Of a stretch of DNA of 48,397 bases, positions 31,212 through 48,397 are shown one piece after another. Source of the stretch: an uncultured Pseudomonadota bacterium (lineage in GTDB: Bacteria; Pseudomonadota; Alphaproteobacteria; Rs-D84; CASDRH01); the NCBI GenBank assembly GCA_949283075.1, contig CASDRH010000007.1:1-48397 (forward strand), written 5' to 3'. Under the pieces are notes generated by a model. It was not told the origin of the DNA, did no database searches, and worked only from the letters and a program-made list of their open reading frames with translations. Position 1 is the stretch's first letter; every line of letters starts with the position of its first letter. A program made the translations under genes and the position numbers.

Positions 31212-31309
31212 CACTCAAAAAAAGCAAATAAAAAAACAAAAAAAATTCTTGAAATTCAATCAATAAACTGATAAAAAATACATAAATTAAAAATCGAAAA
31301 GGATATAAA

Positions 31310-31594: not shown

Positions 31595-31613
31595 GAACAT
31601 CACAGGCACAAAT

Positions 31614-31880: not shown

Positions 31881-31881
31881 A

Positions 31882-32745
31882 ATGAGTTGGTTATCCAGCA
31901 AATCACGTCCAAAAATCAAGACATCAATAGATTCACAGATAGAAGTTCCAGACAACGTATGGAAAAAATGCAAAGAGTGTGAAGCTATCTTATACCATAA
32001 AGAAATCAAAGATAATATGTATATCTGTCCAAAATGTAATTACCACATGACAATGCCGACAGAAGCAAGATTAAAAAGTATGTTTGACGAAGGGAAATAC
32101 GAAAAAATCGTCTTACCAAAAGTAGAAGAAGACCCAATAAAATTTGAAGATTTAAAGAAATATAAAGACAGGTTAGCAACATATAAAAAGCAAACAGGAC
32201 AAGACGAAGTAATCACAGCAGCATATGGAAACATAAACGGCGTCCCAGTTGTAGTAGCAGTATTTAACTTTGAATTCATGGGAGGTTCAATGGGAAGAGC
32301 AGTTGGAGAAGCAATAATCCACTGTGTAGATTACTCAATAAAGCAACACTGCCCATTTATAGTATTACCAGCATCAGGTGGAGCAAGAATGCAAGAAGGA
32401 ATGCTATCATTAATGCAAATGGCAAGAACAACAATGGCAGTAAACAAAATGAACGAAGCAGGATTGCCATATATAGTATTGCTAACAAACCCAACATTTG
32501 GAGGAGTTCCAGCATCATTCGCAATGTTAGGAGATATACACATAGCAGAAACTGGAGCAAAAATTGGATTTGCAGGACAAAGAGTTGTTGACCAAACAAT
32601 CAAACAAAAATTCCCAGACGGCTTTCAAACAGCAGAATATTTAAAAGACCACGGAATGGTTGACGTTGTAGTTGACAGAAAAGAACTAAAAGAAACATTA
32701 GGAAAGATATTAAAAGTATTATTCACAGCAAGGAATATGAAATAA
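31882..32745 (+). CDS. accD: Acetyl-CoA carboxylase carboxyltransferase subunit beta
   Basis: Beta half of the carboxyltransferase making malonyl-CoA. 287 residues. The N-terminal zinc ribbon CKEC...CPKC is at about residues 30-52; the crotonase-fold core has FNFEFMGGSMGRAVGE (about 128-143), LPASGGARMQEGM (about 160-172), TFGGVPASFAMLGD and KIGFAGQRVVDQT. Length and motifs are normal. 18 bases from accA, so both subunits are made from one transcript. Confidence 0.96.
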   Translation: MSWLSSKSRPKIKTSIDSQIEVPDNVWKKCKECEAILYHKEIKDNMYICPKCNYHMTMPTEARLKSMFDEGKYEKIVLPKVEEDPIKFEDLKKYKDRLATYKKQTGQDEVITAAYGNINGVPVVVAVFNFEFMGGSMGRAVGEAIIHCVDYSIKQHCPFIVLPASGGARMQEGMLSLMQMARTTMAVNKMNEAGLPYIVLLTNPTFGGVPASFAMLGDIHIAETGAKIGFAGQRVVDQTIKQKFPDGFQTAEYLKDHGMVDVVVDRKELKETLGKILKVLFTARNMK

Positions 32746-32763
32746 TTAATAAAAGGAAAAAAG

Positions 32764-33741
32764 ATGTTTTTACTAGAATTTGAAAACAAATTATTAAAGC
32801 TAAACGCAGAAATAGAAGACATAGAAAAAAGGCTTGAAAAATGTGTTGAAAAGGGAAGATGTTTTCCAGGTAAATCAACAGAAAAGCTAAAAGAGCTAAA
32901 AAAGCAAATGAATAAAGAATTAAAAGCACTTTATTCAAATTTAGGGGCTTGGGAAAAACAAACAGTTGCAAGACATCCGAACCGTCCACACGCAATTGAT
33001 TATATAAACACATTAATACACGAATTCACCCCATTGGCAGGAGACAGAAATTTCAGCGAAGATAATACTATAATTGGAGGAATAGGATTTCTAGGAGACA
33101 TACCAGTAATGGTAATCGGACAAGAAAAAGGAAACACAATACAAGAAAAGCAAATAAGAAACTTCGGAATGCCAAAACCAGAAGGATACAGAAAAGCAAA
33201 AAGATTGATAAACACAGCGTCAAGATTATCATTACCAATAATAACATTTGTTGACACACCGGGTGCAGAACCGGGAATAGACGCCGAAGCAAGAGGACAA
33301 GCAGAAGCAATTGCAAGGTCAATACAAGCTTGTTTAGATTCAAACACACCAATAGTATCAGTAATAATCGGCGAAGGTGGTTCTGGTGGAGCAATAGCAA
33401 TAGCAACATCAGACAGTGTTATAATGCTTGAACACTCAGTATATTCAGTAATATCACCAGAAGGATGTGCAGCAATATTATGGAAATCAGCATCAGCAAA
33501 AGAGCTTGCAGCAAAAGCATCAAAAATAACCGCTCAAGACTTAAAGAAATTAGGAATAATAGACGAAATAGTAGAAGAGCCATTAGGCGGAGCACATAGA
33601 GATGCAAAAAAAGCAATCCAAGATGTTGGAGATAAAGTTTATTCAGAATTAAAAAGACTTTTACAAATCAGCGACATAAAAAAACACAGACAAGACAGAT
33701 TCTTAAAAATGACTCGTTTAGAAGAGCAAGCAAAATCTTAA
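32764..33741 (+). CDS. accA: Acetyl-CoA carboxylase carboxyltransferase subunit alpha
   Basis: Alpha half of the carboxyltransferase. 325 residues. A helical N-terminal segment (about 1-60), then VARHPNRPHAIDYI (about 68-81), MPKPEGYRKAKRL (about 137-149), FVDTPGAEPGIDAEARGQAE (about 161-180), GEGGSGGAIAIA (about 204-215) and the catalytic-side segment SPEGCAAILW (about 236-245). All are family-typical. The last gene before cassette 3, whose 3' hairpin starts 13 bases after the stop. Confidence 0.96.
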   Translation: MFLLEFENKLLKLNAEIEDIEKRLEKCVEKGRCFPGKSTEKLKELKKQMNKELKALYSNLGAWEKQTVARHPNRPHAIDYINTLIHEFTPLAGDRNFSEDNTIIGGIGFLGDIPVMVIGQEKGNTIQEKQIRNFGMPKPEGYRKAKRLINTASRLSLPIITFVDTPGAEPGIDAEARGQAEAIARSIQACLDSNTPIVSVIIGEGGSGGAIAIATSDSVIMLEHSVYSVISPEGCAAILWKSASAKELAAKASKITAQDLKKLGIIDEIVEEPLGGAHRDAKKAIQDVGDKVYSELKRLLQISDIKKHRQDRFLKMTRLEEQAKS

Positions 33742-33753
33742 AATAAAAAACAG

Positions 33754-33803
33754 TCGGCAAAAGGTTAAACAGAGATTGTAAGAGTGCTAATACCTTTTGC
33801 CGA
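33754..33803 (-). repeat. Cassette 3, 3' hairpin element
   Basis: 11-base perfect stem TCGGCAAAAGG (33754-33764) / CCTTTTGCCGA (33793-33803), 28-base loop with TTGTAAGAGTGCTAA. Right after accA, no T-run on either side. Confidence 0.65.
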
Positions 33804-33903
33804 TATTTCATAAACAATAAAAATAAACACCTAAAAACAATTAACACATATGATTTTATTATTAAAATTCATAAATGTTTCACGTAAAACATTTTACGAA
33901 CAT

Positions 33904-34377
33904 TTAATATTCAATTAAATTTGGGTCAACACGAGAAATTCCAATTTCTGGCAAAGCTTCTAATACATCCATAGGATTAAATGAGCCTTTATACTCTGCA
34001 CATGTATTTCTTCCTACAAAATGATATGGATCAAAAGATTCACTATACATTACACTTCCATCACTCAACGTGTGCTTAAAAACAGCTTCCCTATAATAAT
34101 GCCCAGGATTTATATAACAAGAACCACCACCAGATAAAGCTGGAGCATTTGAGGAATCTTTAAACTCATGCAAATAAACATAATCACCATATCTACCTGA
34201 TTTACAATGTTGAATAACATTTGCGGGAGAAGCTTTTATTTTACAATCAATTTTAACTTCAACATTTTTCAATGCTGATGACTGTTGAGCATAAGAAAAA
34301 GAATGATGACAACCAATACATAAACCAAGCAATAAAAATACTTTGGAAGATAACTTCCAATCAAAATTTTTTATCAT
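33904..34377 (-). CDS. Cassette 3: exported protein, family B, C-terminal DPNLIEY
   Basis: 157 residues. Signal peptide with cleavage near SYAQ (about residue 30). The body belongs to family B, shared with cassettes 4-6: FKHTLSDGSVMYSESFDPYHF (a block of 21 residues about 108-128) and the closing MDVLEALPEIGISRVDPNLIEY block. Cys are fewer than in family A (four in the mature part). ATG follows AGGAGG at seven to eight bases within GGAGGTTTGTGCTATG. Function unknown. It is convergent with accA. Confidence 0.72.
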   Translation of the reverse strand: MIKNFDWKLSSKVFLLLGLCIGCHHSFSYAQQSSALKNVEVKIDCKIKASPANVIQHCKSGRYGDYVYLHEFKDSSNAPALSGGGSCYINPGHYYREAVFKHTLSDGSVMYSESFDPYHFVGRNTCAEYKGSFNPMDVLEALPEIGISRVDPNLIEY

Positions 34378-34457
34378 AGCACAAACCTCCTATATGATAA
34401 ATTAAACTTACAATTTCAATGCATCAAATATTTGAAAACACATTCCAAACAAAGATG

Positions 34458-34599
34458 CTGGAAGTTGACAACTATACAAGAATGCAGTGCGATATATTCA
34501 CCAAAAGACAGCATTTAAAAAAATGCCAACAGATAGCTATTTTATCGCCTTCCAGCAATTACTTGCCGGTTGGCTATTCTTGTAAGGTTGTCACACCTC
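34458..34599 (-). ncRNA. Cassette 3, structured pseudoknotted leader RNA
   Basis: Same plan: hairpin GAGGT/ACCTT (34584-34599) whose loop GTTGTCA (34587-34593) pairs with TGACAAC (34466-34472); P1 ATTCTTGTA (34576-34584) with TACAAGAAT (34475-34483); P2 GCGATA with TATCGC; inner hairpin GCATTT/AAATGC; TGCTGGAAG with CTTCCAGCA. P2 keeps pairing through a change from GTG/CAC to GCG/CGC. I see no U-tailed hairpin between this leader and the gene; a GCATC/GATGC stem is present without a T-run. Confidence 0.75.
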
Positions 34600-34629
34600 A
34601 ATAAAACCGCCGAAACGATTTCACACACA

Positions 34630-34657
34630 ATTATATAATTTTGAAAAAAAATTTCAA
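34630..34657 (-). promoter_or_regulatory. Cassette 3 promoter
   Basis: Minus strand: -35 TTGAAA (34652-34657), 16-base spacer, -10 TATAAT (34630-34635), about 31 bases upstream of the leader hairpin. Confidence 0.72.
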
Positions 34658-34737
34658 CACGTTTAAAAAATTGAAATATCAAATAAATAATTAACAAAAT
34701 ACAAAAAATCACATAAAAAAAATAAATAACTTTTCAA

Positions 34738-34766
34738 TTGCATTTTGTCTATAACTAAAATATAAT
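34738..34766 (+). promoter_or_regulatory. Promoter of the small lipoprotein-pal pair
   Basis: -35 TTGCAT (34738-34743), 17-base spacer, perfect -10 TATAAT (34761-34766), about 75 bases before the small lipoprotein ATG at 34841. Confidence 0.65.
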
Positions 34767-34840
34767 CGAAAATATAAAAATTACTTATAAAGTAATAATA
34801 AATTAAAAGATAAATAAATAAAATTAAGAAAGGTATAAAA

Positions 34841-34999
34841 ATGAAAAAAGTATTATCATTATTAACAGTTGCTGTAATCGCATTATCATTAGCTGCTTGT
34901 GGAGATGAAACACCTGCTGATTCAACAGAAGCAACAAACACAAACACACAAACAAACACAACAACTACAACAAACACAACACCAGATTGGATTAAATAA
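34841..34999 (+). CDS. Tiny Thr-rich lipoprotein
   Basis: 52 codons, with AAGAAAGG before ATG. MKKVLSLLTVAVIALSLAAC is a textbook lipoprotein signal with acylated Cys at 20, followed by GDETPADST, a low-complexity Thr/Asn segment (about 30-47) and DWIK. The start of the mature protein, CGDETP, is the same as that of Pal encoded 23 bases downstream, suggesting that it arose as a partial duplicate of the Pal leader or shares a sorting context. A short Lpp-like or entericidin-like envelope lipoprotein is possible; nothing in the sequence shows its function. Confidence 0.7.
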   Translation: MKKVLSLLTVAVIALSLAACGDETPADSTEATNTNTQTNTTTTTNTTPDWIK

Positions 35000-35022
35000 T
35001 TAATTAACTAAAAGGTGAAACA

Positions 35023-35526
35023 ATGAATAAAATGTTTAAACTTTTGGCTGTATGCGCAATTGCTGTTGCATTGACTGCCTGCGGTGATGAAACACCACAA
35101 TCATCAACAGATGTTGTTGAATATACTGGTACTGTAACATTACCACCTGCAAAAAGTGGCATCAAAGAAGGTACTCAAGAAGACCTAGTAGCACGTGCAG
35201 GAAATATGATTCACTTCGGCACAGATGAATACAGCTTGTCAAAAGAAGCTCAAAGAGTATTGAAACTACAATCATTGTGGTTAAAACAATACGAAAACGT
35301 AAGCATAGTTATTGAAGGTCACTGCGATGAACGTGGAACAAAAAAATATAACTACGCTTTGGGTGAAAGAAGAGCAAACGCAGCAAAAGCATTCTTAATT
35401 GCTCAAGGAATCAAAGCAAACAGAATACAAACTGTTTCATATGGTAAAGATAAACCATTAGATCCAGCATCAAATGAAAGTGCATGGTCAAGAAACAGAA
35501 GAGATGTAACTGTTATTGCTCAATAA
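35023..35526 (+). CDS. pal: Peptidoglycan-associated lipoprotein Pal
   Basis: Outer-membrane lipoprotein of the Tol-Pal system that ties the outer membrane to peptidoglycan. 167 residues; lipobox ALTACGDE (Cys about 20); OmpA-like domain about 60-167 with IVIEGHCDERGTKKYNYALG (about 92-111), RRANAAKAFLIAQGI and the peptidoglycan-binding Asp/Arg positions. The end NRRDVTVIAQ is typical. It follows the tiny lipoprotein and ends in a strong terminator; tolQRAB are not in the window. Confidence 0.95.
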   Translation: MNKMFKLLAVCAIAVALTACGDETPQSSTDVVEYTGTVTLPPAKSGIKEGTQEDLVARAGNMIHFGTDEYSLSKEAQRVLKLQSLWLKQYENVSIVIEGHCDERGTKKYNYALGERRANAAKAFLIAQGIKANRIQTVSYGKDKPLDPASNESAWSRNRRDVTVIAQ

Positions 35527-35545
35527 CATAAACATATTCGAAAAG

Positions 35546-35577
35546 ACGCTATCTATTATAAGGTAGCGTTTTTTTAT
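35546..35577 (+). terminator. Intrinsic terminator after pal
   Basis: Stem ACGCTATCT / AGGTAGCGT (nine pairs, one wobble) and a run of seven T. Confidence 0.85.
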
Positions 35578-35658
35578 ACAAATTTTTTCATAAAAAATTA
35601 AAAATATATTGTAAAAATATAAAAAATCTCCTAGCATATATATACACAGGAGGAAAAA

Positions 35659-36465
35659 ATGAAAAAAATATATTTAACATTAATTACTTCATTATATGCG
35701 ATAAATGCTAACGCGCAATCATTTCCACCACAACAAAATCCAGACAGACAACCCGTCCAAGTGCAATCAACAGCTCAAAGCATTGATGACATAATTGCAT
35801 TATCAATAAAGACTCAAGATGAAAAAAATGCAAAATCAACAAAAGCAGCTACATCAACATCAAACATAGTTGCAAAAACTATAAGTGCAGATAATGCAGA
35901 TTTAATAAACAGAATTGAAAAAATAGAAAAAAATATAAATAATTTTGCACCTACTATGTCAAAAAACATGCAAGATTTAACAACTATAAGAAACAATGCA
36001 GATTCCTTAATAAAAGATGTAGGTATACAATTGCAAGACTTAAAAAATGCAATTCAAATGAACGAATTAAGATATAGAGAATTGTTAAACAGAATTGAAA
36101 TGCTTGAATCAAAATCTGGTATAACAAACAATAACCAAAATCAAATGAAAGCGATACCATTACAAGAAAGCAACAACACAAATAATGCTTCACAAATAAA
36201 TTTTAACAACACATCACCTATTGAACAAGAATTACAAAAAATACAAACAGGAGCATCAAACGGAAACAATGCTAATCCAAACGTTACAATGCAACAACAA
36301 AACCAATCAACTAATAACAATACCAATCCCCAAAATTTAATAGATCAAAATCAACAAGCACAACAAAGAAGATTTACTCAATTTGACGAACCACAACAAA
36401 TGCCACAAGCAAATGAATATATACCATTATCAAGAAATCAAATTATAATCCCAAATGACAACTAA
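35659..36465 (+). CDS. Exported coiled-coil protein, possibly CpoB/YbgF position
   Basis: 268 residues. Signal peptide (cleavage near ANAQ, about residue 20), a predicted coiled coil (about 75-155, NRIEKIEKNINNF ... LRYRELLNRIEMLESK), then an Asn/Gln-rich tail (about 155-268). A gene downstream of pal is often cpoB (ybgF), whose product also starts with a trimeric coiled coil, but the TPR repeats that define CpoB are not visible, so this is only a positional resemblance. AGGAGG lies at a good distance from the ATG. The end overlaps the glycosylase gene by 11 bases. Confidence 0.6.
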   Translation: MKKIYLTLITSLYAINANAQSFPPQQNPDRQPVQVQSTAQSIDDIIALSIKTQDEKNAKSTKAATSTSNIVAKTISADNADLINRIEKIEKNINNFAPTMSKNMQDLTTIRNNADSLIKDVGIQLQDLKNAIQMNELRYRELLNRIEMLESKSGITNNNQNQMKAIPLQESNNTNNASQINFNNTSPIEQELQKIQTGASNGNNANPNVTMQQQNQSTNNNTNPQNLIDQNQQAQQRRFTQFDEPQQMPQANEYIPLSRNQIIIPNDN

Positions 36466-37360
36466 AAATGAATTGATACAAATCATAAAGTTGTATGTAT
36501 CATACGGAATTGATACAATAATCGAAAATGATTCAATAAACTTCATAAAAGAATCAGAAAAACTATTAAAAGCAAAAGTAAATACTGCACCAGAAATAAA
36601 AGAAGCTAATATCAATAAAACTGATAAGCAGAACTTTAATTTCACAAGCTTCAATTTTAATAAAGAAACAACAAACGAAAATAAAGCAAAAGAACAACCA
36701 GCGGATTTATTCATAAAAATAAATAATACAGAAAACCAAGAATTTATCCAAGCAACAATAGAAGCAGAAAAACAAGCTCAACAAATAGCAGATGAATCAA
36801 AGACATTAAAAGAGCTAAAAGAAAAAACAGAAGCATCAACATTTTGCACATTAAAAAAATATGCTAAAAACTTTGTATTTGGAGAAGGTATAGAAAAATC
36901 TCCATTAGCAATGATAATAGGAGAAGCTCCAGGAGCAGACGAAGACATACAAGGCAAACCATTTGTTGGAGTAAGTGGACAATTATTAACAAAAGCATTA
37001 GAAACAATAGGATTATCAAGAGAAACAAATTTCTACATAACAAACATAATAAAGTGGAGGCCACCAGGCAACAGAACTCCAACAAGAGAAGAAATAAAAA
37101 TCTGTATGCCTATAATAAGAAAACAAATAGAACTTATAAAACCAAAAATGATAATTTTAATCGGAGCAGTAGCAGCAACCGGACTATTAAACACGACAGA
37201 AGGAATAACAAAAATAAGAGGGCAAATATTCGAATATAACGGATTAAAAGTAATATCAACATTTCATCCATCATATTTATTAAGGAATCCAATAGCAAAA
37301 AAACAAACATACATAGATATGTTAAAAATCAAAAAAATCATAAACGAAATACAAGAATAA
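36455..37360 (+). CDS. Uracil-DNA glycosylase, family 4 type
   Basis: Removes uracil from DNA. 301 residues; the first ~125 are a low-complexity linker region, and the glycosylase domain (about 130-300) has AMIIGEAPGADEDIQGKPFVG (21 residues, about 151-171), FYITNIIKWRPPGNRTPT (about 193-210) and the second active-site motif TFHPSYLLRNP (about 269-279). This is the UDG family 4/5 layout. Only one of the usual iron-sulphur Cys positions is evident (TFCTLKKYA, about 130), so cluster binding is doubtful. The same arrangement with a Cys-poor N-terminus is seen in alphaproteobacterial relatives. Confidence 0.85.
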   Translation: MTTKNELIQIIKLYVSYGIDTIIENDSINFIKESEKLLKAKVNTAPEIKEANINKTDKQNFNFTSFNFNKETTNENKAKEQPADLFIKINNTENQEFIQATIEAEKQAQQIADESKTLKELKEKTEASTFCTLKKYAKNFVFGEGIEKSPLAMIIGEAPGADEDIQGKPFVGVSGQLLTKALETIGLSRETNFYITNIIKWRPPGNRTPTREEIKICMPIIRKQIELIKPKMIILIGAVAATGLLNTTEGITKIRGQIFEYNGLKVISTFHPSYLLRNPIAKKQTYIDMLKIKKIINEIQE

Positions 37361-37364
37361 AAGC

Positions 37365-37407
37365 CAGTTGATAAAGCACGAGGTTGTGCAAAATGCTTTA
37401 CCAACTG
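37365..37407 (-). repeat. Cassette 4, 3' hairpin element
   Basis: 14-base stem CAGTTGATAAAGCA / TGCTTTACCAACTG with one A.C mismatch, 15-base loop containing GAGGTTGTGC (37380-37389), identical to that of cassette 1. On the cassette transcript it reads GCACAACCTC. Five bases after the glycosylase stop. Confidence 0.65.
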
Positions 37408-37479
37408 ATAATAAAATCAATAAAAATAAACATTAAATTATAAGCATAGAACCTTAACAAAATAACCGACCAGAAAGAA

Positions 37480-37980
37480 TTAATATTCAATTAAATTAGG
37501 ATCAATATTTGCTAAACCAATATCAGGCATTAAAGATAAAAGTTTATCAGCAGGTAATTTCCATAATAAGCACTTTCCATCATTAAAATGATTTGCATCA
37601 TTACTTTGAGAATACATAACTCTACCATCATTCAAAATATGCTTATATACGTTATGCTTACATTGCCAACCTATTTTTCCACCATCACTTCCAGATGAAC
37701 AAGCACAATCACCACCCCTTAAAGCTGGAGGATTTGATGAATCATTAAAGTTAGCATTTTCAGAAACATTTTTTCCATTACAATAATGCTCTACAGAAGT
37801 TGCAAATACTCTACCCGAACATTGAGCAGTATAATCAAAATTATTTGCATATAATGTTAAACTATCACCAACAACTTTTGCCATAATTTCCAAATCATTT
37901 TGTTGAGAAAAAACATTACTTGATAAAAAAGTAGTTAAAAATAAAGATAAATATAAAGTTTTTTTAATTTTATTTTTCAT
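37480..37980 (-). CDS. Cassette 4: exported protein, family B, C-terminal DPNLIEY
   Basis: 166 residues from ATG 37980; the same AGGGAG-to-ATG region as in cassette 1 (AGGGAGTGAAAGCTATG) supports this start over a GTG nine bases upstream. Signal peptide with cleavage near VFSQ. Mature part has Cys-Ala-Cys in GGDCACSSGS, the family B block YKHILNDGRVMYSQSNDANHF (21 residues) and the ending LMPDIGLANIDPNLIEY. The cassette 4 leader is closest to that of cassette 5. Function unknown. Gene flanked by inverted AACCGACCAG copies (37464-37473 and 38149-38158). Confidence 0.72.
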   Translation of the reverse strand: MKNKIKKTLYLSLFLTTFLSSNVFSQQNDLEIMAKVVGDSLTLYANNFDYTAQCSGRVFATSVEHYCNGKNVSENANFNDSSNPPALRGGDCACSSGSDGGKIGWQCKHNVYKHILNDGRVMYSQSNDANHFNDGKCLLWKLPADKLLSLMPDIGLANIDPNLIEY

Positions 37981-38007
37981 AGCTTTCACTCCCTATTTTT
38001 TGTTTAA

Positions 38008-38042
38008 CAAATAAACACCGATTACCACTTTCAGCAATCAGC
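38008..38042 (-). terminator. Cassette 4, putative leader attenuator
   Basis: Minus strand: GCUGAUU pairs with AAUCGGU (two wobbles), followed by GUUUAUUUG. It starts inside the CUUCCAGC segment of the leader. Weaker than in cassette 5. Confidence 0.4.
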
Positions 38043-38184
38043 TGGAAGTTCGCAACTATGAACAGTATAGTGTGATTTATTCCACGCCCAAAAAGCAATC
38101 GAAATTGCTTTCGTTCGTATTTTTATTCGACCACCTTCCAGCATTGCGCTGGTCGGTTCCTGTTCACAAAGGTTGCGACACCTT
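38042..38184 (-). ncRNA. Cassette 4, structured pseudoknotted leader RNA
   Basis: Hairpin AAGGT/ACCTT (38169-38184) with loop GTTGCGA (38172-38178) pairing with TCGCAAC (38050-38056); P1 CTGTTCA (38160-38166) with TGAACAG (38059-38065); CCAGC/GCTGG hairpin that shares GCTGGAAG with the long-range pair to CTTCCAGC; P2 GTGGTC with AATCAC; inner hairpin GCAAT/ATTGC. Conserved unpaired-looking stretch GAATAAATCACACTATA on the minus strand. Confidence 0.78.
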
Positions 38185-38215
38185 CAGGCCAGACACTGTA
38201 TCTGACTTATCAACA

Positions 38216-38243
38216 ATTATAAAATTTTCTGAACATTTTGCAA
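38216..38243 (-). promoter_or_regulatory. Cassette 4 promoter
   Basis: Minus strand: -35 TTGCAA (38238-38243), 16-base spacer, -10 TATAAT (38216-38221). Start expected near 38209. Confidence 0.75.
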
Positions 38244-38264
38244 CATATGATTTAAAAACAAAAA

Positions 38265-38298
38265 AGCTACTCTAATTTTCATTAAAGTAGCTCTTGAA
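38265..38298 (-). terminator. Terminator of the orphan gene at 38318
   Basis: Minus strand: AGCTACT (38286-38292 side) pairs with AGTAGCT (38265-38271 side), followed by six T. It lies 25 bases after the orphan gene's stop and just upstream of the cassette 4 promoter, insulating the cassette from read-through. Confidence 0.8.
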
Positions 38299-38317
38299 AA
38301 AACAATTATTTTAAATT

Positions 38318-38809
38318 TCACATAAGCCTAATTTCATTTTTTGCAATTGCTTCATTTTTAGCATTGCATATTAACATATTCAATGCATCCAATGAACCTA
38401 CTAATGTATTATTTTTAGAATAATGCTTAAATTCTTTAATAACATTTAATGGAATTTCCCTTAATCTAGCCGGAGTTATTTTATATGTGTAACCCGATAA
38501 AATCAATGCTATCATATAATTCAAAGGGATATCTTGTATATACCCGCATAATGCGAGTATGCTATACAATTGAGATATATTCTTATCAGAAACTATAAAT
38601 ACATTTTGTTTACCTGCCAGCAATCCAAGCTTTGTTTCAAAGATTTGAAGCGGCATTTCTTTACCGCTTAACCTAAGTTCATCTACTAAAAGCTCACCTC
38701 TGACATTCCGCCAATCAAGGGGAATTCCTCCTTCTGTCATTAAACCTTCAGCCTCTAATAAATTATTAGTTTTACAAATAATAATTTCATTAAAAATATA
38801 TTTTTTCAT
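38318..38809 (-). CDS. Hypothetical protein, no family recognised
   Basis: 163 residues, no signal peptide and no membrane helix. Predicted mixed alpha/beta: EIIICKTNNLLEAEGLM, GKQNVFIVSDKNISQLYSIL (about 66-85), a hydrophobic helix NYMIALILSGYTYKI (about 97-111) and a helical end with two Cys. Codon use and base composition are like the window average, though GC is a little higher at the 5' end. It stands alone with a strong terminator between cassette 4 and uvrB. I cannot assign a function. Confidence 0.55.
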   Translation of the reverse strand: MKKYIFNEIIICKTNNLLEAEGLMTEGGIPLDWRNVRGELLVDELRLSGKEMPLQIFETKLGLLAGKQNVFIVSDKNISQLYSILALCGYIQDIPLNYMIALILSGYTYKITPARLREIPLNVIKEFKHYSKNNTLVGSLDALNMLICNAKNEAIAKNEIRLM

Positions 38810-38878
38810 CTATTTCTCATAAAAAAAATTTGTATACGAAAGAATATACAAAAAAATGAAAATATCAAGATAAATAAA

Positions 38879-40999
38879 TTACATCAATTCCAACATAACT
38901 TTTTCTAACTCTTGGATTTGATTACGCAAGACAACAGCTTGTTCAAATTCTAAATTTTCAGCATGTTTTAACATCTGCTTTTTTAATTTAGCAATCTGTT
39001 TTTGAATTTGATCAGGCTTTAATTTATGAGAAGAACTTTCCAAATTATACTTACCAACAGTATCTAAAACATTAAATTCAGCATCAAAAGATTTATTATG
39101 CTTTTGCTTTGGTCTACGTCCACCGACAGAAGAACTCTGCTCTTCTGGACTAGACAATGAATCAGCAATTTTCTTAACAACACTTTTTGGAGTAATCCCA
39201 TTTTCAGCATTATATTGTAATTGTTTAGCACGTCTACGTTCATTTTCTTCAAGAGCAACTTTCATAGAATCAGTAATTTTATCAGCATACAAAACAACCT
39301 TACTATTAACATTACGTGCAGCACGACCAATAGTCTGTATCAAACTTCTAGAAGACCTTAAAAAGCCTTCTTTATCCGCATCAAGAATAGCAACAAAAGC
39401 ACATTCAGGGATATCAAGACCTTCTCTTAAAAGGTTAATACCGACCAAACAATCAAAATTACCAAGTCTCAAATCACGAATAATTTCTATACGCTCTAAC
39501 GTATCAATATCAGAATGCATATATTTTGTTTTAATTCCGTGTTCAATTAAATATTCAGTCAACTGCTCTGCCATACGCTTTGTTAAAGTAGTACATAAAG
39601 TTCTAAATCCTTTCAAAGCAGTTTCTTTAACTTCGTGCATTAAATCATCAATCTGATTTTTAACAGGACGAACTTCACATACAGGGTCAACCAATCCAGT
39701 TGGGCGAATAATCTGCTCAGCAAATTTACCATCAGTTAACTCTAATTCCCAATCCCCAGGAGTAGCAGAAACAAAAATAGTTTTAGGGCGAATTTCATCC
39801 CATTCTTCAAATTGCAAAGGACGATTATCTTTACAACTTGGCAATCTAAACCCATAATCAGAAAGCGTTTGCTTACGGCTAGCATCACCTTTATACATAC
39901 CACGTATTTGAGGAACAGAAACGTGGGATTCATCAATAAACAACAAAGCATCATCAGGAAGATACTCAAATAAAGTAGGAGGAGGATATCCAGCCGGACG
40001 CCCAGTTAAATACCTAGAATAATTTTCAATACCTTTACAAAAGCCGGTTGATTCCATCATTTCCAAATCAAAATTCGTTCTTTCACGTATTCTTTGAGCT
40101 TCTAATAATTTCATATTATTTTCAAAGAATTTAACTCTTTCATCAAGTTCAGCTCTTATTTGAGAAATCGCCTGACTAACAGTAGCGTGAGGAGTAGCAT
40201 AATGAGAATTCGGATAAACAACGATTCTGTCAAGCTTATTAAAAACGGCACCAGTCAAAGGGTCAAATTCAGAAATCTGTTCAATTTCATCATCAAACAT
40301 CATAACACGCCAAGCTCTATCTTCAAGGTGAGAAGGGAATATATCAATAATATCGCCATTTGTTCTGAAAGTACCACGAGACAAATCCATATTATTTCTT
40401 GTATACTGCAAATCGACCAAAGCTTTAATAATATCATCTCTGTTAATAGTTTTTCCAGAAACAGAAGTTGGTTGCAAATCCAATAACATATCACCATAAC
40501 TTGCAGGGTCGCCAAGACCATATAAACAAGAAACGGAAGAAACAACAATCACATCACGATATTCCAATAAATTACGAGTCGCAGAATGACGCATACGGTC
40601 AATTTGTTCATTTATACTAGCATCTTTTTCAATATATAAATCAGTTTTTGGGACATAAGCTTCTGGCTGATAATAATCATAATAAGAAACAAAATATTCA
40701 ACATGATTATTTGGAAAAAGTTCTTTCATTTCGGAATAAAGTTGAGCAGCCAAAGTCTTATTCGGAGCCATAATAACAGCAGGCACTTTACACTGCTGAA
40801 TAACGTGAGCCATAGTAAAAGTTTTACCAGAACCAGTAACACCAAGCAAAATCTGATTACGTTTATTTTTTAAAACACCATCAACCAAATCAGCAATAGC
40901 AAAAGGCTGGTCTCCTGAAGGTTTAAAATCTGAAACTAAATCGAAATCCGCAGGGATACCAAGAAATTTATTATTATGATTGTGCTTTAAAGTAGGCAT
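38879..40999 (-). CDS. uvrB: Excinuclease ABC subunit B
   Basis: DNA-damage verification helicase of nucleotide excision repair. 706 residues. Walker [17 protein letters not shown] (about 52-67), the DNA-clamping beta-hairpin [16 protein letters not shown] (about 102-117), DEXX box [18 protein letters not shown] (about 350-367), helicase motif [16 protein letters not shown] and the C-terminal UVR motif that binds UvrC (about 666-700, [18 protein letters not shown]). All family-typical. About 70 bases separate it from the orphan gene downstream. Confidence 0.97.
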
Positions 41000-41053
41000 A
41001 CAGCAAATTGTATATATAATAAAATTATAATCAAGAAATAATTAAGGAAAGGC

Positions 41054-41101
41054 CAACAGATGCATCAATGAGGTTGTTTAAGAGTGCTAATACATCGGTT
41101 G
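41054..41101 (-). repeat. Cassette 5, 3' hairpin element
   Basis: Stem CAACAGATG (41054-41062) / CATCGGTTG (41093-41101) with one mismatch, 30-base loop with GAGGTTGTTTAAGAGTGCTAA; CATCAA/TTGATG can pair as an alternative. It lies between cassette 5 and the start of uvrB, which is on the same strand, so it is not the terminator of a plus-strand neighbour. Confidence 0.6.
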
Positions 41102-41113
41102 ATGAAAAAGATA

Positions 41114-41147
41114 AAAACCGGTCAAAAAAGCAAATCCGACCGGTTTT
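41114..41147 (-). terminator. Terminator after cassette 5 gene
   Basis: Perfect 10-base stem AAAACCGGTC / GACCGGTTTT with a 14-base loop, starting just after the stop codon; on the minus strand it ends in TTTTT-ATCTTTTTC. Cassette 6 keeps only one arm (GACCGGTTTTT, 48134-48144). Confidence 0.7.
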
Positions 41148-41150
41148 GAA

Positions 41151-41659
41151 CTAATATTCAATTAAATTAGGGTCCACACGAGAAACACCAATCTTAGGCA
41201 TAGCTTTCAAAATATCCATAGTATCAAAAGAAATTTCGCAAGTACTTTCTTTATTAAAATGAGTATTAGAAGAACTCTCACTATACATAACACTACCATT
41301 ACTCAAAGTATGCTTGTATATATCATTTTTATAATAATGCGAATCATCAATACAGCAATATCCATTCCAATTCACATTAGGAGCACTCATTCTATCAACA
41401 AAATTTTGATCATAGCTCTGCCTAGCACCTTCACAATATTTTTCAACCTTTACAGTTTTAATTTGAAACTGATCAAGAGTACAATCAAACTTAACCTTAA
41501 TTTTTTTTAATTCTGGGGACTGAGCATTAACAAAATTAATATTAGAAAAACACATAATCATCAAAATAAAAATATTGATAAATAAAGCATTTCCAATATG
41601 TAAAGTTTTGAAATTAAAAATTTTTTAAAAATATATTTTTTTATTATTTTATTTTTCAT
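41151..41659 (-). pseudogene. Cassette 5: family B exported protein, frame-shifted in the signal peptide
   Basis: The ribosome site AGAGG and an ATG at 41659 give MKNKIIKKYIFKKF, like the MKNKIKK start of cassette 4, but the frame stops after about 33 codons. The rest, from about 41640 to the stop at 41151, is open in another frame and encodes the hydrophobic signal core (ALFINIFILMIMCF), cleavage near VNAQ, then SPELKKIKVKFDC, YKHTLSNGSVMYSESSSNTHF (21 residues) and PKIGVSRVDPNLIEY. One extra base in the T5-A6-T5 stretch (minus strand, about 41617-41635) would join them into a protein of about 169 residues. This could be a real off-state, decay or a sequencing error. No good ATG with a ribosome site exists for the inner frame alone (137 residues from a TTG). 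Confidence 0.65.
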
Positions 41660-41685
41660 TGCACACCTCTTTTTTTTAATAGTTA

Positions 41686-41716
41686 ATAAAAACAGCCGTT
41701 AAAAAACAAACAGCTG
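41686..41716 (-). terminator. Cassette 5, leader attenuator (best example)
   Basis: Minus strand: CAGCUGUU pairs with AACGGCUG (eight pairs, one wobble), followed by UUUUUAUU, before the gene start. Its 5' arm shares CAG with the leader segment CUUCCAGC, so the pseudoknot pairing and this terminator compete for the same bases. Confidence 0.65.
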
Positions 41717-41858
41717 GAAGTTAAGAACTATGCTACATATTATAGTGTGATTTATTCCACGCACGAAAAACAACCGAAGTTATCTCCGCTTGATTTTATT
41801 CAATCACCTTCCAGCATTGCGCTGGCCGGTTATATGAGCAAAAAGGTTACTATACCTT
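41714..41858 (-). ncRNA. Cassette 5, structured pseudoknotted leader RNA
   Basis: Hairpin AAGGT/ACCTT (41843-41858) whose loop TTACT pairs with AGAA(C) of GTTAAGAAC with a bulge (weakest of the five loop pairings); P1 ATATGAGCA (41832-41840) with TGCTACATAT (41731-41740, one bulge); CCAGC/GCTGG hairpin; GCTGGAAG with CTTCCAGC; P2 GTGATT/AATCAC. The minus-strand segment GAATAAATCACACTATA is the same as in cassette 4. Confidence 0.75.
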
Positions 41859-41881
41859 CGGGTCTTTACGACTTGTCTTGC

Positions 41882-41909
41882 ATTATAGTTTTTTTTGCAA
41901 TTTTTGCAA
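41882..41909 (-). promoter_or_regulatory. Cassette 5 promoter
   Basis: Minus strand: -35 TTGCAA (41904-41909), 16-base spacer, -10 TATAAT (41882-41887). Same -35 and spacing as cassette 4. Confidence 0.75.
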
Positions 41910-41953
41910 GACGAGTTTACATACAAAATCTATAAAAAAATAAACACAAATAA

Positions 41954-43120
<1,167 letters not shown>

Positions 43121-43151
43121 AAAAATACAAATATATAATTACAAAAGAATT

Positions 43152-43177
43152 AAAGAATGTGAAAGCATTCTTTTTTT
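43152..43177 (+). terminator. mreB terminator
   Basis: Stem AAAGAATG / CATTCTTT over a six-base loop and then T. The T-run overlaps the stop codon of the convergent gene. Confidence 0.85.
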
Positions 43178-44330
43178 ATTGATATTTCTTGTTAAAATCA
43201 GCTTGTATAGTCTCTAATTCATCTTTAGCTGATTTATAAACTTTATCAGCTTTAATTAAATTAATTTCAGCTTTTCTCAACTCAATTTTAATATTATTAA
43301 ATTGTTTCAAAGCAGCATTAACTTGATTATCTAAATTGTCATTAGCATCCTTTGCGGAATTATAAATTTCTTGCAACTTTTGAACATTTGCTGTTTGTTG
43401 TTGCATTTCTGTTTGCTTTTTTGTTATCAAATCCATTCTATTTTGTTTAACACTTTCATCAAGATTATCTATTCCAGAGGTCAAATTTGTAAATTCAATC
43501 AATAATTGTTTCAATCTATATTGTGCAGATGAAAGCCTTTCTTTAGCCAAAGAAAAATCTTTATAAGATTTACCAGCCTGCCTTTTCATATCATTTAACT
43601 GAACTAAAGCTGTATCCCTCCCAGTTTTCAATTGTTTTACTAAAGCATCAGCTTCTTGTAATGCAAGAGCATATTTCTGCAACTGTTGATTTTTCGAATT
43701 TAAAAGATTTTGAGCTTCCAACATTTCTTGTTGTTGCTTTTGAGAAAGTTTTTTTTGTTTATCAGTATTTCTTTTTAACTTTGCATCATTATTATCTTTC
43801 TGCCTATATTTAAGAAATATATTCTGATAAGCTTCTCTTTGTAAATCAATTTCACTTTTAGAAGAATCATCAAGCATATTTTGATTTTGCAATTCATACG
43901 TTTGCGAAACAGGAACAGCACCAACAGACAACCCTAAATTATAAATAGCCTGATTTTGAACAGGATTTGAAATAACGCTTTCAGCATTAACAGAATTATC
44001 AACTACACCAACACTACCAGCGGATTGATATTGATTATAATTAGCATTTTGTATATTAGCTACTTGTCCAACATCAGAATAACTATATTGATTTTGAACA
44101 GAAGCAGAACTTTGGCTTACCTGAGCAACACTCTGTCCAGAATTACCAACAGATGACTGTAAAGCTTGTCCTGAATCAGCTTGAGAAACAGAACTTGCAT
44201 AGTTAACATCACTATATTGAATTGCTTGCTGAGCTTGATTATCTTGTAAAGGAAGCTCTTGTGCTTTTATTGAAAAAGAAATAAACACAATAAATAAAAA
44301 AAATATAAAGCTTTTATAATCGAAATTCAT
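43176..44330 (-). CDS. Exported Gln/Ser-rich coiled-coil protein
   Basis: 384 residues. Signal peptide with cleavage near IKAQ (about residue 23). Residues 24-150 are low-complexity, rich in Gln, Ser, Asn, Val and Tyr (repeats of the SQ/NQY type, e.g. QSSASVQNQYSYSDVGQVAN). Residues 155-384 form a long, highly charged predicted coiled coil (LRREAYQNIF-like start, then KLSQKQQQEMLEAQ and several heptad stretches). A periplasmic or surface filamentous protein is likely; I recognise no named family. It lies between convergent mreB and nrdA on the nrdA strand, 63 bases after nrdA. Confidence 0.6.
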   Translation of the reverse strand: MNFDYKSFIFFLFIVFISFSIKAQELPLQDNQAQQAIQYSDVNYASSVSQADSGQALQSSVGNSGQSVAQVSQSSASVQNQYSYSDVGQVANIQNANYNQYQSAGSVGVVDNSVNAESVISNPVQNQAIYNLGLSVGAVPVSQTYELQNQNMLDDSSKSEIDLQREAYQNIFLKYRQKDNNDAKLKRNTDKQKKLSQKQQQEMLEAQNLLNSKNQQLQKYALALQEADALVKQLKTGRDTALVQLNDMKRQAGKSYKDFSLAKERLSSAQYRLKQLLIEFTNLTSGIDNLDESVKQNRMDLITKKQTEMQQQTANVQKLQEIYNSAKDANDNLDNQVNAALKQFNNIKIELRKAEINLIKADKVYKSAKDELETIQADFNKKYQ

Positions 44331-44393
44331 TATTATAAAATTATATCATAAAATAATGATAAACAAACTATAAAAGCTTTGTTTTAATACATA

Positions 44394-46655
44394 TTAAGTG
44401 CAACTATCGCACTGTCCTTCAAGTTCAAAATTACTTTTAGGAGTTTTCATATAATACAAAGTTTTAACTCCATTTTCCATTGCCATTTTAATATCTTCCC
44501 AAAGCTCACGAGCAGATTCAGGACGAACATAATAAAGATTCATAGATTGAGCTTGATCAATATACTGTTGACGGATAGCCCCTAATTTAACAATTGTTTT
44601 TGCAGGGATTTCCCAACATCTTTGATAATAAGGACCATTTTCCTTAATTCTAGGAGCCAAAGAAGGCAAAACTTGAATACCTTCTTCAATAAAGAACAAA
44701 TCAACAATAGGCTCAATAGATTCAGTTGCACTAATACTTTTACCAGAAGTAGCAGTTGGAGCAATAGCAGCGTGCAAAGAAAATCTTACACCAGACTGTT
44801 TAATTTGAGCACCCAACTCATCCCATTTTGTCATATCAATATTGTTATCAGGCAACTTTTGCATATGTAAAGGAGTCTTACCATCAGCCCATTTAGTATT
44901 TTTAAAAGTAGAAAATGGACCACGTTCAACAGCTAATTGATTAGATGTTTTATAAATGTGATAATAAACATCATCAAATAATTTATTAGTAAATTCTTCT
45001 GTTTCTGGGTCAGTATATTTTAATTTATTACTTGCCAATAAATTAGCATAATTCAAAACACCAACACCAATTGGTCTATTTTTAACATTGGAAATTTTAC
45101 CTTCTTTAACAGGATAATATTGAGTATCGATAACATTATCACAACCACGAAGCAAAGTATAACAGAAATCTGATTTTTCATCTTCATTCATTTTAACCCA
45201 TTCAACAAGGTTGATTGACACTAAATTACAAATACCAATTTCACCAGCTTTTTTACGTTGAATAATTTCATAATCACCATTTTCATTTATAATATATTTT
45301 TCATCAATTAATTCAGAAGGAAAAGAAGGAACAACAACTTCCTGACAAAGGTTAGAAGCTCCAACAAAAGTATTCAACATATTTTGTTTATTTATATTAT
45401 CGACAAAAGTTAAATATAAATTACCAGTTTCTTGACGAACTTTTAAAATATGCAATAAAAGCTCTTTTGCAGGTATTTTCTTTTTTCTAATAGAAGTAGT
45501 ATTTTCATAATTAACATAAGCTTCTTCAAATTCTTTTCCAAAAGTAGTATTTAATAAAGGAACATCTTTTGGATCGAACAAAGAAATCTCCTCATTATTT
45601 TCAACTCTTTCTTTAAAGATATTGCTTAATTTAACTGCATAAACTAATTTTCTAGCACGATTATCTTCTGTTCCACCAGCATCTTTCAACATAATTAAAT
45701 CCATAACATCAAGATGCCACCAAGGGAAAGTAACAACACAAGCCCCTTTTCTAGCGCCACCTTGGTCAAAAGAAGATATTGTTTGTTCTGCTCTTTTAAT
45801 AAAAGGTATAGGACCATTAGATTTACCTCTATTAGTTCTAATAGAAGAACCAGTTGCACGAATATAAGATATATCATAAGCAATACCACCAGCATACTTT
45901 GAATAAGTAGCCATATTAGCATCAGTTTGATTCAAAGACCAAGTATCATCAGCAACAGTATTCAAAACACAGCTAGCTAACTGAGGATTATTAGTAAAGC
46001 TATGCAAAACACGAGGAGTTGCAAAAGTGACTTTTTGCAAAGACAACATATCATAAGTTTTCTTTATCAACTCAATTCTTTTGCTTTTATCATCATTAAA
46101 GAAAGAGTACATAGCAACAACCATATAAGCAATCTGAGGCAATTCAAATTTCTTACCATTAAAAGCCTTACAATACTTATTATTAAACATACTCAAACCT
46201 TTATATGTAAACAAAAAGTCTCTATCAGGCTGAATATATCGGCTAAGCTCATCTATTTCCTCAGCAGAAAAAGAATCCGCAACAGCTTTATCATAAACAC
46301 CGAAAGAAACGCCTTGATCAATAATAGATTGTAAATGAGGATACTCACCAGTTCTTTTTAATTTAGCAGTTTCTTTATATATTTTTAATAACAATAATCT
46401 TTTTGAAATTTCATCATAGAAAGGATATAAGCGAGATATATTATTAACAGCAGTACTAATCAATTCATCATACAAAGCTTCAACACGCATTCTGTCGTTA
46501 ATTTTAATATCCAATGATTCAAGAATATTATTTGTATAAGCTTCATTATTATCAGTTGCCCACATAACAACTTTTCTTAATTTTTGAATATCAAAAGGTT
46601 CCTCACGACCATCGCGTTTAATAATAATATGCTTTTTACCTCTAGCAAGTTCCAT
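44394..46655 (-). CDS. nrdA: Ribonucleoside-diphosphate reductase alpha subunit
   Basis: Large subunit of class I ribonucleotide reductase. 753 residues from the ATG at 46655, preceded by GGAG at seven bases; a GTG directly upstream is also possible. An ATP-cone allosteric domain is at the N-terminus (IIIKRDGREEPFDIQKLRKVV, about 11-31). The barrel has ASCVLNTV (active-site Cys, about 228), the GGxxYD-like GGIAYDISYIRATGSSIR, SNLCQEVVVP (about 431, the Cys-x-Glu active site) and PTATSGKSISATESIEP. The C-terminal CDSC is the redox pair that re-reduces the active site. Second gene of the nrdB-nrdA operon. Confidence 0.95.
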   Translation of the reverse strand: MELARGKKHIIIKRDGREEPFDIQKLRKVVMWATDNNEAYTNNILESLDIKINDRMRVEALYDELISTAVNNISRLYPFYDEISKRLLLLKIYKETAKLKRTGEYPHLQSIIDQGVSFGVYDKAVADSFSAEEIDELSRYIQPDRDFLFTYKGLSMFNNKYCKAFNGKKFELPQIAYMVVAMYSFFNDDKSKRIELIKKTYDMLSLQKVTFATPRVLHSFTNNPQLASCVLNTVADDTWSLNQTDANMATYSKYAGGIAYDISYIRATGSSIRTNRGKSNGPIPFIKRAEQTISSFDQGGARKGACVVTFPWWHLDVMDLIMLKDAGGTEDNRARKLVYAVKLSNIFKERVENNEEISLFDPKDVPLLNTTFGKEFEEAYVNYENTTSIRKKKIPAKELLLHILKVRQETGNLYLTFVDNINKQNMLNTFVGASNLCQEVVVPSFPSELIDEKYIINENGDYEIIQRKKAGEIGICNLVSINLVEWVKMNEDEKSDFCYTLLRGCDNVIDTQYYPVKEGKISNVKNRPIGVGVLNYANLLASNKLKYTDPETEEFTNKLFDDVYYHIYKTSNQLAVERGPFSTFKNTKWADGKTPLHMQKLPDNNIDMTKWDELGAQIKQSGVRFSLHAAIAPTATSGKSISATESIEPIVDLFFIEEGIQVLPSLAPRIKENGPYYQRCWEIPAKTIVKLGAIRQQYIDQAQSMNLYYVRPESARELWEDIKMAMENGVKTLYYMKTPKSNFELEGQCDSCT

Positions 46656-46717
46656 CACCTTACTCCTTTCCTCCTGTTAAAAAAATTCCTTTTGTGTTTA
46701 TTTAATCCTAAAAGTAA

Positions 46718-47800
46718 TTACAAGTCGTTTTTCAAAACACCTTTTTGATAACTTGTATTAGTAGTTTCCTGCAAAGCAGAATTTTGTTTATTAATATCTC
46801 TGTAATCATTAAACCAATCAACGATATCAGATTTTTTAACATTTAAATATTCTGTTTTAATATCAAGAGCATTCAATCTTTGGCCAGCCCAATATTTGAT
46901 AAAGTTTTCACTTACAGCAGAGTTAATACCTTTAACATTTTTACCATCGAAAAGATATTTACCCCATTTAACTTCTTCATCAACAGTTTTTTCAAGCATT
47001 TCAAGAGCCATTTTTTCAAACCAACCACTTTTGAATAATTCTGTGAAGCCTTGTTCTTCTTCAGACTTTAAAATTCGCATAACAGCAAGACCAGTTGGGA
47101 CGTGAACATTAAGTTCATCGTGAGCAATCAATTTTAATGTTCTAGTAAATCCAGCAATAGCATTATCATAATTATCGTTAATAACAAAAGTAACCAAGAA
47201 AGAAAATGGGAATTTGATACCTTCCAAAAGATATATACCAAACAACAATTTCAAAATAGCTTGTTTCATTTCAGTCATATCGTTATCAAAAACATTTTCC
47301 ATAGGATTTGAATTCAACTTATCAACAGAATCAAACAATTCAACTTCTTTCGCCATTCTAGTTTTAACAAAATCATCATTATAAACTAAATCCAAAGTTT
47401 CAGTTGCTTGATGACCGAAAACTTCTGACAAACCATAAGAATAACTTTCTGCGTGAATAGTTTCCTCAATTGCAATTCTAGAATATAATATAGACCAAAT
47501 AGGACTTGTAACAATTCTATTCATAATAGAACTAATACCACTAGTAACACCACTATCCATTAAAGTTTGATAAGCAATGTTTAATTTAAAAGCTCTCTGC
47601 ACATCTTCTGGTAAAGAGGAAAATTTTGTTTTATCAGATTTATAATCAATCTCCTTTGAAAACCAAGTATTACCTTCGCTAGCTTCTTTTAAAGTTCTTG
47701 CTACTTCGTGACTAATAGAATCAATACGTAAATAATGCCCATAATCGCCCAAAAATATTTTTTCATTAATAGGTTTATGATCAACACTAACGACTTTCAT
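46718..47800 (-). CDS. nrdB: Ribonucleoside-diphosphate reductase beta subunit
   Basis: Radical-generating small subunit of class I ribonucleotide reductase. 360 residues; di-metal ligands in the helices with AIEETIHAESYSYGLSE (about 111-127), where the Tyr of ESY corresponds to the radical tyrosine, and LLEGIKFPFSFLVTF plus LIAHDELNVH (about 226-235) for the second half-site. GGAAGGGGAAAA precedes the ATG. First gene of nrdB-nrdA (about 60 bases apart), behind a promoter region carrying NrdR-box-like sites. Confidence 0.95.
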   Translation of the reverse strand: MKVVSVDHKPINEKIFLGDYGHYLRIDSISHEVARTLKEASEGNTWFSKEIDYKSDKTKFSSLPEDVQRAFKLNIAYQTLMDSGVTSGISSIMNRIVTSPIWSILYSRIAIEETIHAESYSYGLSEVFGHQATETLDLVYNDDFVKTRMAKEVELFDSVDKLNSNPMENVFDNDMTEMKQAILKLLFGIYLLEGIKFPFSFLVTFVINDNYDNAIAGFTRTLKLIAHDELNVHVPTGLAVMRILKSEEEQGFTELFKSGWFEKMALEMLEKTVDEEVKWGKYLFDGKNVKGINSAVSENFIKYWAGQRLNALDIKTEYLNVKKSDIVDWFNDYRDINKQNSALQETTNTSYQKGVLKNDL

Positions 47801-47876
47801 TTTTCCCCTTCCTTTACAATTTGATTGTTAGTTTATACTAATAAAAAACCTTTGTTCTTTACGAACACTAGCCAAA

Positions 47877-47925
47877 ACACAATATATAGTATCTAATAAC
47901 TGATATCGCAAACAATATATACTTA
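47877..47925 (-). promoter_or_regulatory. Tandem NrdR-box-like operators upstream of nrdB
   Basis: Two AT-rich sites sharing the core CAATATATA: ACACAATATATAGTAT (47877-47892) and CAAACAATATATACTT (47910-47925), about 33 bases apart, i.e. roughly three helical turns. This matches the tandem NrdR boxes that repress nrd operons when dATP is high. They sit over the likely promoter of nrdB-nrdA. Confidence 0.65.
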
Positions 47926-48031
47926 AATCAATATCGATGTCAAACACATTTATAAAAAAAATTTTAAATGTATATAAAATATAAAGATTTTTTATTTTAG
48001 TTGACAGATTCTTAAAAATTAATGAATCAGC

Positions 48032-48075
48032 CGGTTGAAAAATCAGGAGGTTTGTGAGTGCTAATTTTCCAACCG
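48032..48075 (-). repeat. Cassette 6, 3' hairpin element
   Basis: 12-base stem CGGTTGAAAAAT / ATTTTCCAACCG with one A.C mismatch, the mismatch being placed as in cassette 4. The loop holds GGAGGTTTGTG (48046-48056) followed by AGTGCTAA; the cassette transcript thus carries CACAAACCTCC, an 11-base exact complement of the ribosome-binding region of cassette 3. Confidence 0.65.
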
Positions 48076-48147
48076 AAAAAACAATATATAGTATTAAGAT
48101 ACATTAAAAATAAATTCCCAAAAATAAAGATTCGACCGGTTTTTAAA

Positions 48148-48397
48148 CTAATATTCAATTAAATTTGGGTCTATTCTAGATTGTCCAATTGAAGGAAAAG
48201 CAGATAACAAAGCTATTGGATCAATTAAAGTTTCCCATTCTACACAGACTTGGACTATCTCCGCTACCTGTAAAATGATATGGATCTGAGGACTCACTAT
48301 ACATTATATCACCTGTTGGTAAAATATGTTTATATACATCATTTTTTTGATCTCCAAGAGAACTACACTCTTTTGTGCAACACGTGCCAAAATAATG
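48148..48397 (-). pseudogene. Cassette 6: family B protein, C-terminal part, frame-shifted, cut by window end
   Basis: Reading the minus strand in from the window end gives HYFGTCCTKEC, then YKHILPTGDIMYSESSDPYHF (21 residues) in one frame, and then CVEWETLIDPIALLSAFPSIG and QSRIDPNLIEY plus TAG in another. The frame change lies between about 48247 and 48275 and equals one extra base (or two lost). Both halves clearly match cassettes 3-5, so this is a family B copy with a frameshift. The 5' end, leader and promoter are outside the window. Confidence 0.65.

Follow-up and report, generated by a model that had tools for sequence, protein, structure and literature searches.

Within the window, the 48,397-nucleotide stretch of DNA analysed here, the leader of cassette 5 is, on computational evidence, a full-length alphaproteobacterial relative of sRNA-Xcc1 (RF02221). 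On balance we favour the view that it is an antisense-RNA leader of the C4/Xcc1 type that has become a transcription attenuator, its specificity being near-private in each copy. Attenuation through competition between a local hairpin (P4), a pseudoknot (PK2) and a terminator is likely, and an antisense trigger is a more tentative proposal, plausible if slightly doubtful.

Fold and copies of the leader

A single covarying fold emerges from alignment of 28 copies from the genome with about 70 relatives in Alphaproteobacteria; it is predicted to comprise P1, P2, PK1, P3, P4, P5, P6 and PK2. The loop of P2 pairs downstream (PK1), the loop of P6 pairs upstream (P3), and PK2 and P4 compete for one strand. 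The hairpin, pseudoknot and U-tailed terminator described in the earlier note are all present where it located them, on the minus strand at 41858-41686; its view of the fold was partial, missing PK1, P3/P6 and P5, which are the strongest covarying parts, and the distribution over 32 copies. The elements of cassette 5 and the other leader copies in the window are listed below.

41882-41909, minus strand: promoter-like element, TTGCAA (41909-41904), 16-nt spacer and TATAAT (41887-41882), from the sequence
41862-41872, minus strand: P1, short variable hairpin GUC-GUAAA-GAC, covarying in relatives with about 70% of cells paired
41842-41859, minus strand: P2 hairpin GAAGG...CCUUU, its loop holding the PK1 5' strand UAGUAAC (41852-41846), from alignments
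41832-41840, minus strand: P3 5' strand UGCUCAUAU, from private complementarity to the P6 loop
41811-41825, minus strand: P4 hairpin CCAGC-GCAAU-GCUGG, from own-versus-other permutation
41808-41815, minus strand: PK2 5' (middle) strand GCUGGAAG, common to P4 and corresponding to the start of the RF02221 model, from covariation and Rfam
41747-41807, minus strand: P5 (41807-41803 with 41751-41747), with the conserved AAUA...AAUA motif and a variable hairpin inside it, 98-99% of cells paired
41728-41745, minus strand: P6 hairpin CUAU...AUAG, its loop (41740-41731) being the P3 3' strand, from alignments
41722-41728, minus strand: PK1 3' strand GUUCUUA, from alignments
41713-41720, minus strand: PK2 3' strand CUUCCAGC, from alignments and permutation
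41685-41716, minus strand: intrinsic-terminator-like hairpin CAGCUGUU/AACGGCUG followed by UUUUUAUU, CAGC common to PK2, from terminator count and energies
41657-41670, minus strand: Shine-Dalgarno sequence AGAGG and start codon ATG (41659-41657), from the sequence
41151-41564, minus strand: downstream exported-protein gene, ending VDPNLIEY, frame broken near the start, from translation
38041-38185, minus strand: leader copy of cassette 4, from the covariance model
34457-34600, minus strand: leader copy of cassette 3, PK2 intact, no U-tailed terminator, from the covariance model and terminator scan
31004-31157, minus strand: leader copy of cassette 2, terminator displaced, from the covariance model and terminator scan
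22192-22360, minus strand: leader copy of cassette 1, the most diverged, from the covariance model

Across the 28 copies of this genome, pairing is maintained in 96% of cells in PK1, which joins the P2 loop to the seven bases just 5' of the PK2 strand and has four double-change pairs, in 99.6% of cells in PK2 and in 99% in P5. Among 34 aligned family members the corresponding values are 100% for both PK1 and PK2, 98% for P5 and 99% for P6; four of the eight PK2 pairs have changed on both sides, and double-changed cells number 166 against 56 in shuffles. The P6 stem has a few compensatory changes. The sequence of P3 differs in almost every one of the 28 copies, and the 5' strand of a copy scores far higher with the 3' strand of that copy (mean 19.4) than with those of others (9.6; 0/20000 permutations). 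Cross-copy combinations about as good as a copy's own pair amount to only 11 of 756, and two chimeric copies or the degenerate L014 account for most of these. The pairing specificity is near-private to each copy.

With the leader sequence as query, 48 matching pieces were found in its own genome (928,337 bases, 96% complete). A covariance model built from the 28 aligned copies located 32 leader copies in these 0.93 Mb (E 5e-30 to 5e-13, the E-values being rough), copy counts that are not independent within one genome because the copies are paralogues with gene conversion. The promoter-like element is conserved upstream of most other copies, and a small exported protein with a variant of the C-terminus DPNLIEY follows all 26 copies in this genome that have enough downstream sequence. 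Members of this protein family in the window (21641-22138, 30421-30918, 33904-34377, 37480-37989, 41151-41564 and 48148-48397) have variable bodies and a nearly invariant C-terminus, which could be a sorting signal; two representatives had no match in Pfam. The gene at 48148-48397 is cut by the contig end, and its leader is unreadable for that reason. Between cassettes 1 and 2 (22572-30303), inspection by eye revealed a cluster resembling a type IV pilus or type II secretion system, with secretin, ATPase and inner-membrane components.

The leader of cassette 5 is itself slightly damaged, with a bulge and a single mismatch in its P3 and PK1 partners, and its 3' strands match locus L010 better than they match their own 5' side. 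In both this leader (41713-41859) and L009:479-625 the 3' half equals that of L010:680-825 and suits the 5' half of L010 better; from their sequences, both leaders look like gene-conversion chimeras. The ATG-opened frame of cassette 5 (41564-41659) runs for about 32 codons to a stop, beyond which another frame continues the exported protein, a break for which a pseudogene, a phase-variable A tract or an assembly error are possible explanations.

Competition between P4, PK2 and the terminator

In cassette 5 the calculated energies on the minus strand are -6.7 kcal/mol for P4 (CCAGC 41825-41821 with GCTGG 41815-41811), -12.2 kcal/mol for PK2 (GCTGGAAG 41815-41808 with CTTCCAGC 41720-41713) and -9.6 kcal/mol for the terminator (CAGCTGTT 41716-41709 with AACGGCTG 41700-41693, followed by TTTTTATT). 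The 5' arm of the terminator, CAGCTGTT, starts within the PK2 strand CTTCCAGC, and loss of the four shared bases CAGC reduces the terminator from -9.6 to -0.5 kcal/mol. This arrangement, a hairpin with a U tract whose 5' arm is common to an alternative helix, is that of an intrinsic-terminator attenuator. By calculated energies, removing the shared bases destroyed the terminator in three of four examples; in some copies, L011 among them, a stable terminator is still present after PK2 formation.

The earlier note had proposed that the GCTGG segment pairs either with the preceding CCAGC or with a strand downstream, that the downstream strand overlaps the terminator 5' arm, and that the three structures are partly exclusive. 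Both helices were found and are conserved, with own-versus-other permutations giving 0/5000 for each of P4 and PK2 in 100 alphaproteobacterial copies. The same permutation in the window's genome alone gave 147/5000 (P4) and 755/5000 (PK2), a weak test with a small signal because the strands of these helices hardly vary there. In many relatives P4 contains G-U pairs at positions where PK2 is free of them (for example in L075, CUUUUGGUCG vs CUUCCAGUCG against CGACUGGAAG), which makes P4 the weaker competitor.

The overlap was likewise borne out. Of the 28 copies in this genome, 18 have a terminator-like site (2.3 expected from shuffles), as have 24/29 copies of nearer relatives (1.3 expected) and 34/44 of other class members (1.7 expected), together 76/101 copies where about 5 would be expected, or 8- to 20-fold over expectation, and in most copies with a terminator it starts 2-4 nt within PK2. 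Exclusivity of the three structures is supported family-wide, because the permutation tests and the terminator counts both point to it. The description of cassettes 1-4 as having weaker, displaced or no versions fails for PK2, which is intact in all four, and stands for the U-tailed terminator, which varies and is lacking in cassette 3; a recognisable one is absent from 10/28 copies of this genome.

Distribution and kinship with sRNA-Xcc1

The leader RNA was found in 43/59 genomes sampled from its own order, with up to 25 copies in one relative (model R1), and with a second model (R2) in 25/385 genomes of the class, representing 22 genera; at most eight candidates per genome were scored in the class scan and its copy numbers are lower bounds. 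The phylum sample yielded two matches, both already-known members. A pattern search of genome contigs, in which NNNNAN was used where NNNAA was meant, recovered five true members from uncultured Alphaproteobacteria (UBA3650, RGIG3755 twice, a rumen MAG and SIG60), several of them from rumen or abomasum; hits in Dojkabacteria and Lachnospiraceae and one viral hit were not confirmed as members. Neither a phage search with the window leader nor a search of viral contigs with the corrected pattern gave a match. At 78 of 93 loci outside this genome an ORF that has a Shine-Dalgarno-like sequence of its own follows the leader directly on the same strand. These downstream genes encode small helix-turn-helix proteins, cysteine-rich exported proteins, outer-membrane barrels, lipoproteins, pilin-like proteins, glycosyltransferases and a restriction-like nuclease (lipoproteins and pilin-like proteins recognised by eye), and the targets of the family share no single pathway.

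Rfam searches of the whole window at gathering threshold, and of 30000-48397 up to E = 10, found nothing at the leader, and the window copies did not reach the curated RF02221 cut-off of 53 bits. In class relatives RF02221 matched the 3' part of the leader in L105 (56.2 bits), L080 (45.4 bits) and L107 (44.1 bits); in 20 nearer relatives the sole match was a weak one to sRNA-Xcc1 (E 0.0064), which overlaps the leader of L041. Membership is indirect, resting on these matches in intermediates found with R2 and on a common architecture, and R2 itself recovers only 3/20 RF02221 loci, weakly. The outer stem of RF02221 corresponds to PK2 and its inner stems to P5 and P6. Leader and sRNA-Xcc1 thus have the same three-stem body in the same order: outer stem, P5 with its AAUA motifs, P6, the single-stranded PK1 strand and the closing outer-stem strand. 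The Rfam model differs from the leader in comprising the 3' 87 nt only, without PK1, P3 and P4. The definition of sRNA-Xcc1 as an 88-nt RNA goes back to one cDNA clone, a Northern blot with a single band near 100 nt and end mapping (PMC2996969); the RNA has been placed upstream of symE in Xanthomonas integrons (PMC12444791), and Xylella has seven homologues (PMC12189769).

RF02221 was detected in 57/398 genomes of the phylum. The best 20 RF02221 loci have upstream partners of both the PK1 strand and the P6 loop (0/10000 permutations each), typically about 96 and 83 bases upstream of the model, and the same partners are found in the leaders of the window family. A Vibrio phage record annotates sRNA-Xcc1, and there homology runs about 117 bases further upstream. 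Since RF02221 loci, those of prophages and phages included, carry the upstream partners, RF02221 appears to be a truncated description. A second partner copy lies over the ribosome-binding site in RF02221 loci (0/10000 permutations), terminators are few (2/20), and proteins with Bro-N, KilA-N or P22_AR_N domains are encoded downstream of several. By contrast, alphaproteobacterial leaders mostly have a terminator. The second copy is absent in the window's genome (8611/10000) and at most weak in other alphaproteobacterial relatives (90/10000). In the openly accessible literature searched, no paper was found that connects RF02221 with an upstream module, with terminators or with Alphaproteobacteria.

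C4 antisense RNA (RF01695; c4-2, RF02944) provides a second comparison, c4 and the upstream c4-a1b1 being listed as motifs (PMC2864571). In phages P1 and P7 RNase P cuts C4, a three-stem RNA, out of a longer transcript; of its two antisense segments, one is directed at the ribosome-binding site and specificity depends on the other (PMC5320573). The second partner copy over the ribosome-binding site of RF02221 loci follows this same logic. The leader family resembles C4 in having antisense segments whose sequence changes and determines specificity; the C4 target is the ribosome-binding site of an antirepressor operon, and multi-copy sets occur in Acinetobacter (PMC5320573, PMC2864571). The window's genome differs in having a terminator instead, no antirepressor genes downstream and no second partner copy at the ribosome-binding site, so that the classical C4 target is missing. 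RF01695 matched no locus scanned, window copies included. At L128:2890-2958 a c4-2 match below threshold (34.8 bits against a cut-off of 41) shares a prophage-like locus with an RF02221 RNA.

Proposed mechanism and alternatives

The leader may be viewed as two parts, a 5' module of pairing segments (the P2 loop and the P3 strand) followed by the three-stem body (PK2, P5, P6). During transcription P4 would form first and hold the middle strand. Pairing in cis of the P2 loop with the PK1 strand, and of the P3 strand with the P6 loop, would then bring the PK2 strand to a toehold, the unpaired end of the middle strand, from which PK2 could displace P4; by taking the first bases of the terminator, PK2 would allow transcription to continue into the gene. 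Without these pairings the terminator would form and a short leader RNA would be released, perhaps after a C4-like cut where PK2 begins. By analogy with C4, this RNA may pair with both 5' segments whenever its own locus is transcribed again, causing termination and keeping the gene down. The direction of the switch, the processing and the action in trans are what we infer.

Terminators serve as the platform of fluoride and ZTP pseudoknot riboswitches, in which a shared pseudoknot strand sets read-through. In these riboswitches (PMC11077080, PMC7337938) the pseudoknot strand common to the terminator 5' arm decides read-through there much as proposed here; the leader differs in its fold, its near-private long-range helices and targets that hint at no ligand, and has no Rfam match. 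Second-messenger riboswitches often control surface proteins, pilin-like proteins and glycosyltransferases, and many leader targets are of these kinds. A ligand riboswitch, with the pseudoknotted fold and its conserved AAUA...AAUA loop as aptamer and a ligand stabilising PK2 to block the terminator (an ON switch), would account for the elaborate conserved fold, the conserved internal loop and the terminator as expression platform. We nevertheless consider it unlikely. The targets, which include exported proteins, HTH regulators, prophage antirepressors and a restriction-like nuclease, have no common pathway, and this weakens a metabolite riboswitch; kinship with RF02221, a described small RNA, requires no ligand; and known riboswitch families gave no Rfam match in the window leaders or the relatives scanned. 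Cyclic di-GMP was rejected as ligand: GGDEF domains are present in G000, G147 and G346, the window's genome has them, and they are absent in G011, G016 and G054, three relatives with 10 to 25 copies in which this ligand is unlikely for that reason. T-box and other classes were dropped, with no match by eye, as was an integron attC-like recombination site, because the promoter, the terminators and a covariation that includes G-U pairs speak for RNA.

A free small RNA that ends at the terminator and acts in trans on other mRNAs, with leak or other signals providing expression of the downstream gene, is an improbable reading of the leader. sRNA-Xcc1 itself was found as such a short RNA (PMC2996969), and promoter-like and terminator-like elements lie on both sides of the leader; against this stand the downstream ORFs at the 78 loci noted above and the one protein family downstream of all 26 checkable copies here, and competition of P4 and the terminator with PK2 would be of no clear use in a simple sRNA. 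Of the earlier note's readings, the attenuator and the free sRNA both fit a relative of sRNA-Xcc1 and C4, and no supporting evidence was found for the metabolite riboswitch. That the shared bases are a by-product, the fold merely protecting or positioning the mRNA and the hairpin after PK2 being a general 3' element, agrees with the missing U tracts but is very hard to reconcile with the excess of terminators, their usual 2-4 nt overlap into PK2, and the maintenance of both P4 and PK2 while the sequence changes.

Our preferred reading, an antisense-RNA attenuator, indicates that sRNA-Xcc1, regarded until now as a short sRNA standing alone, forms the 3' portion of a larger pseudoknotted leader that occurs in phages and across Alphaproteobacteria. 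It also suggests how sRNA-Xcc1 works, two short self-specific pairings choosing between two competing helices, and one device appears to serve two outputs, the ribosome-binding site or a terminator. Far more speculatively, this reduced genome may run some 30 independent and mutually orthogonal antisense-RNA attenuators, one per exported-protein gene and each with lock-and-key helices private to it. These would derive from a domesticated phage-type immunity RNA, rewired from ribosome blocking to transcription termination. The sequences being near-private, this orthogonality is directly testable with reporters, and 32 copies per 0.93 Mb would, to our knowledge, be among the densest RNA-switch regulons.
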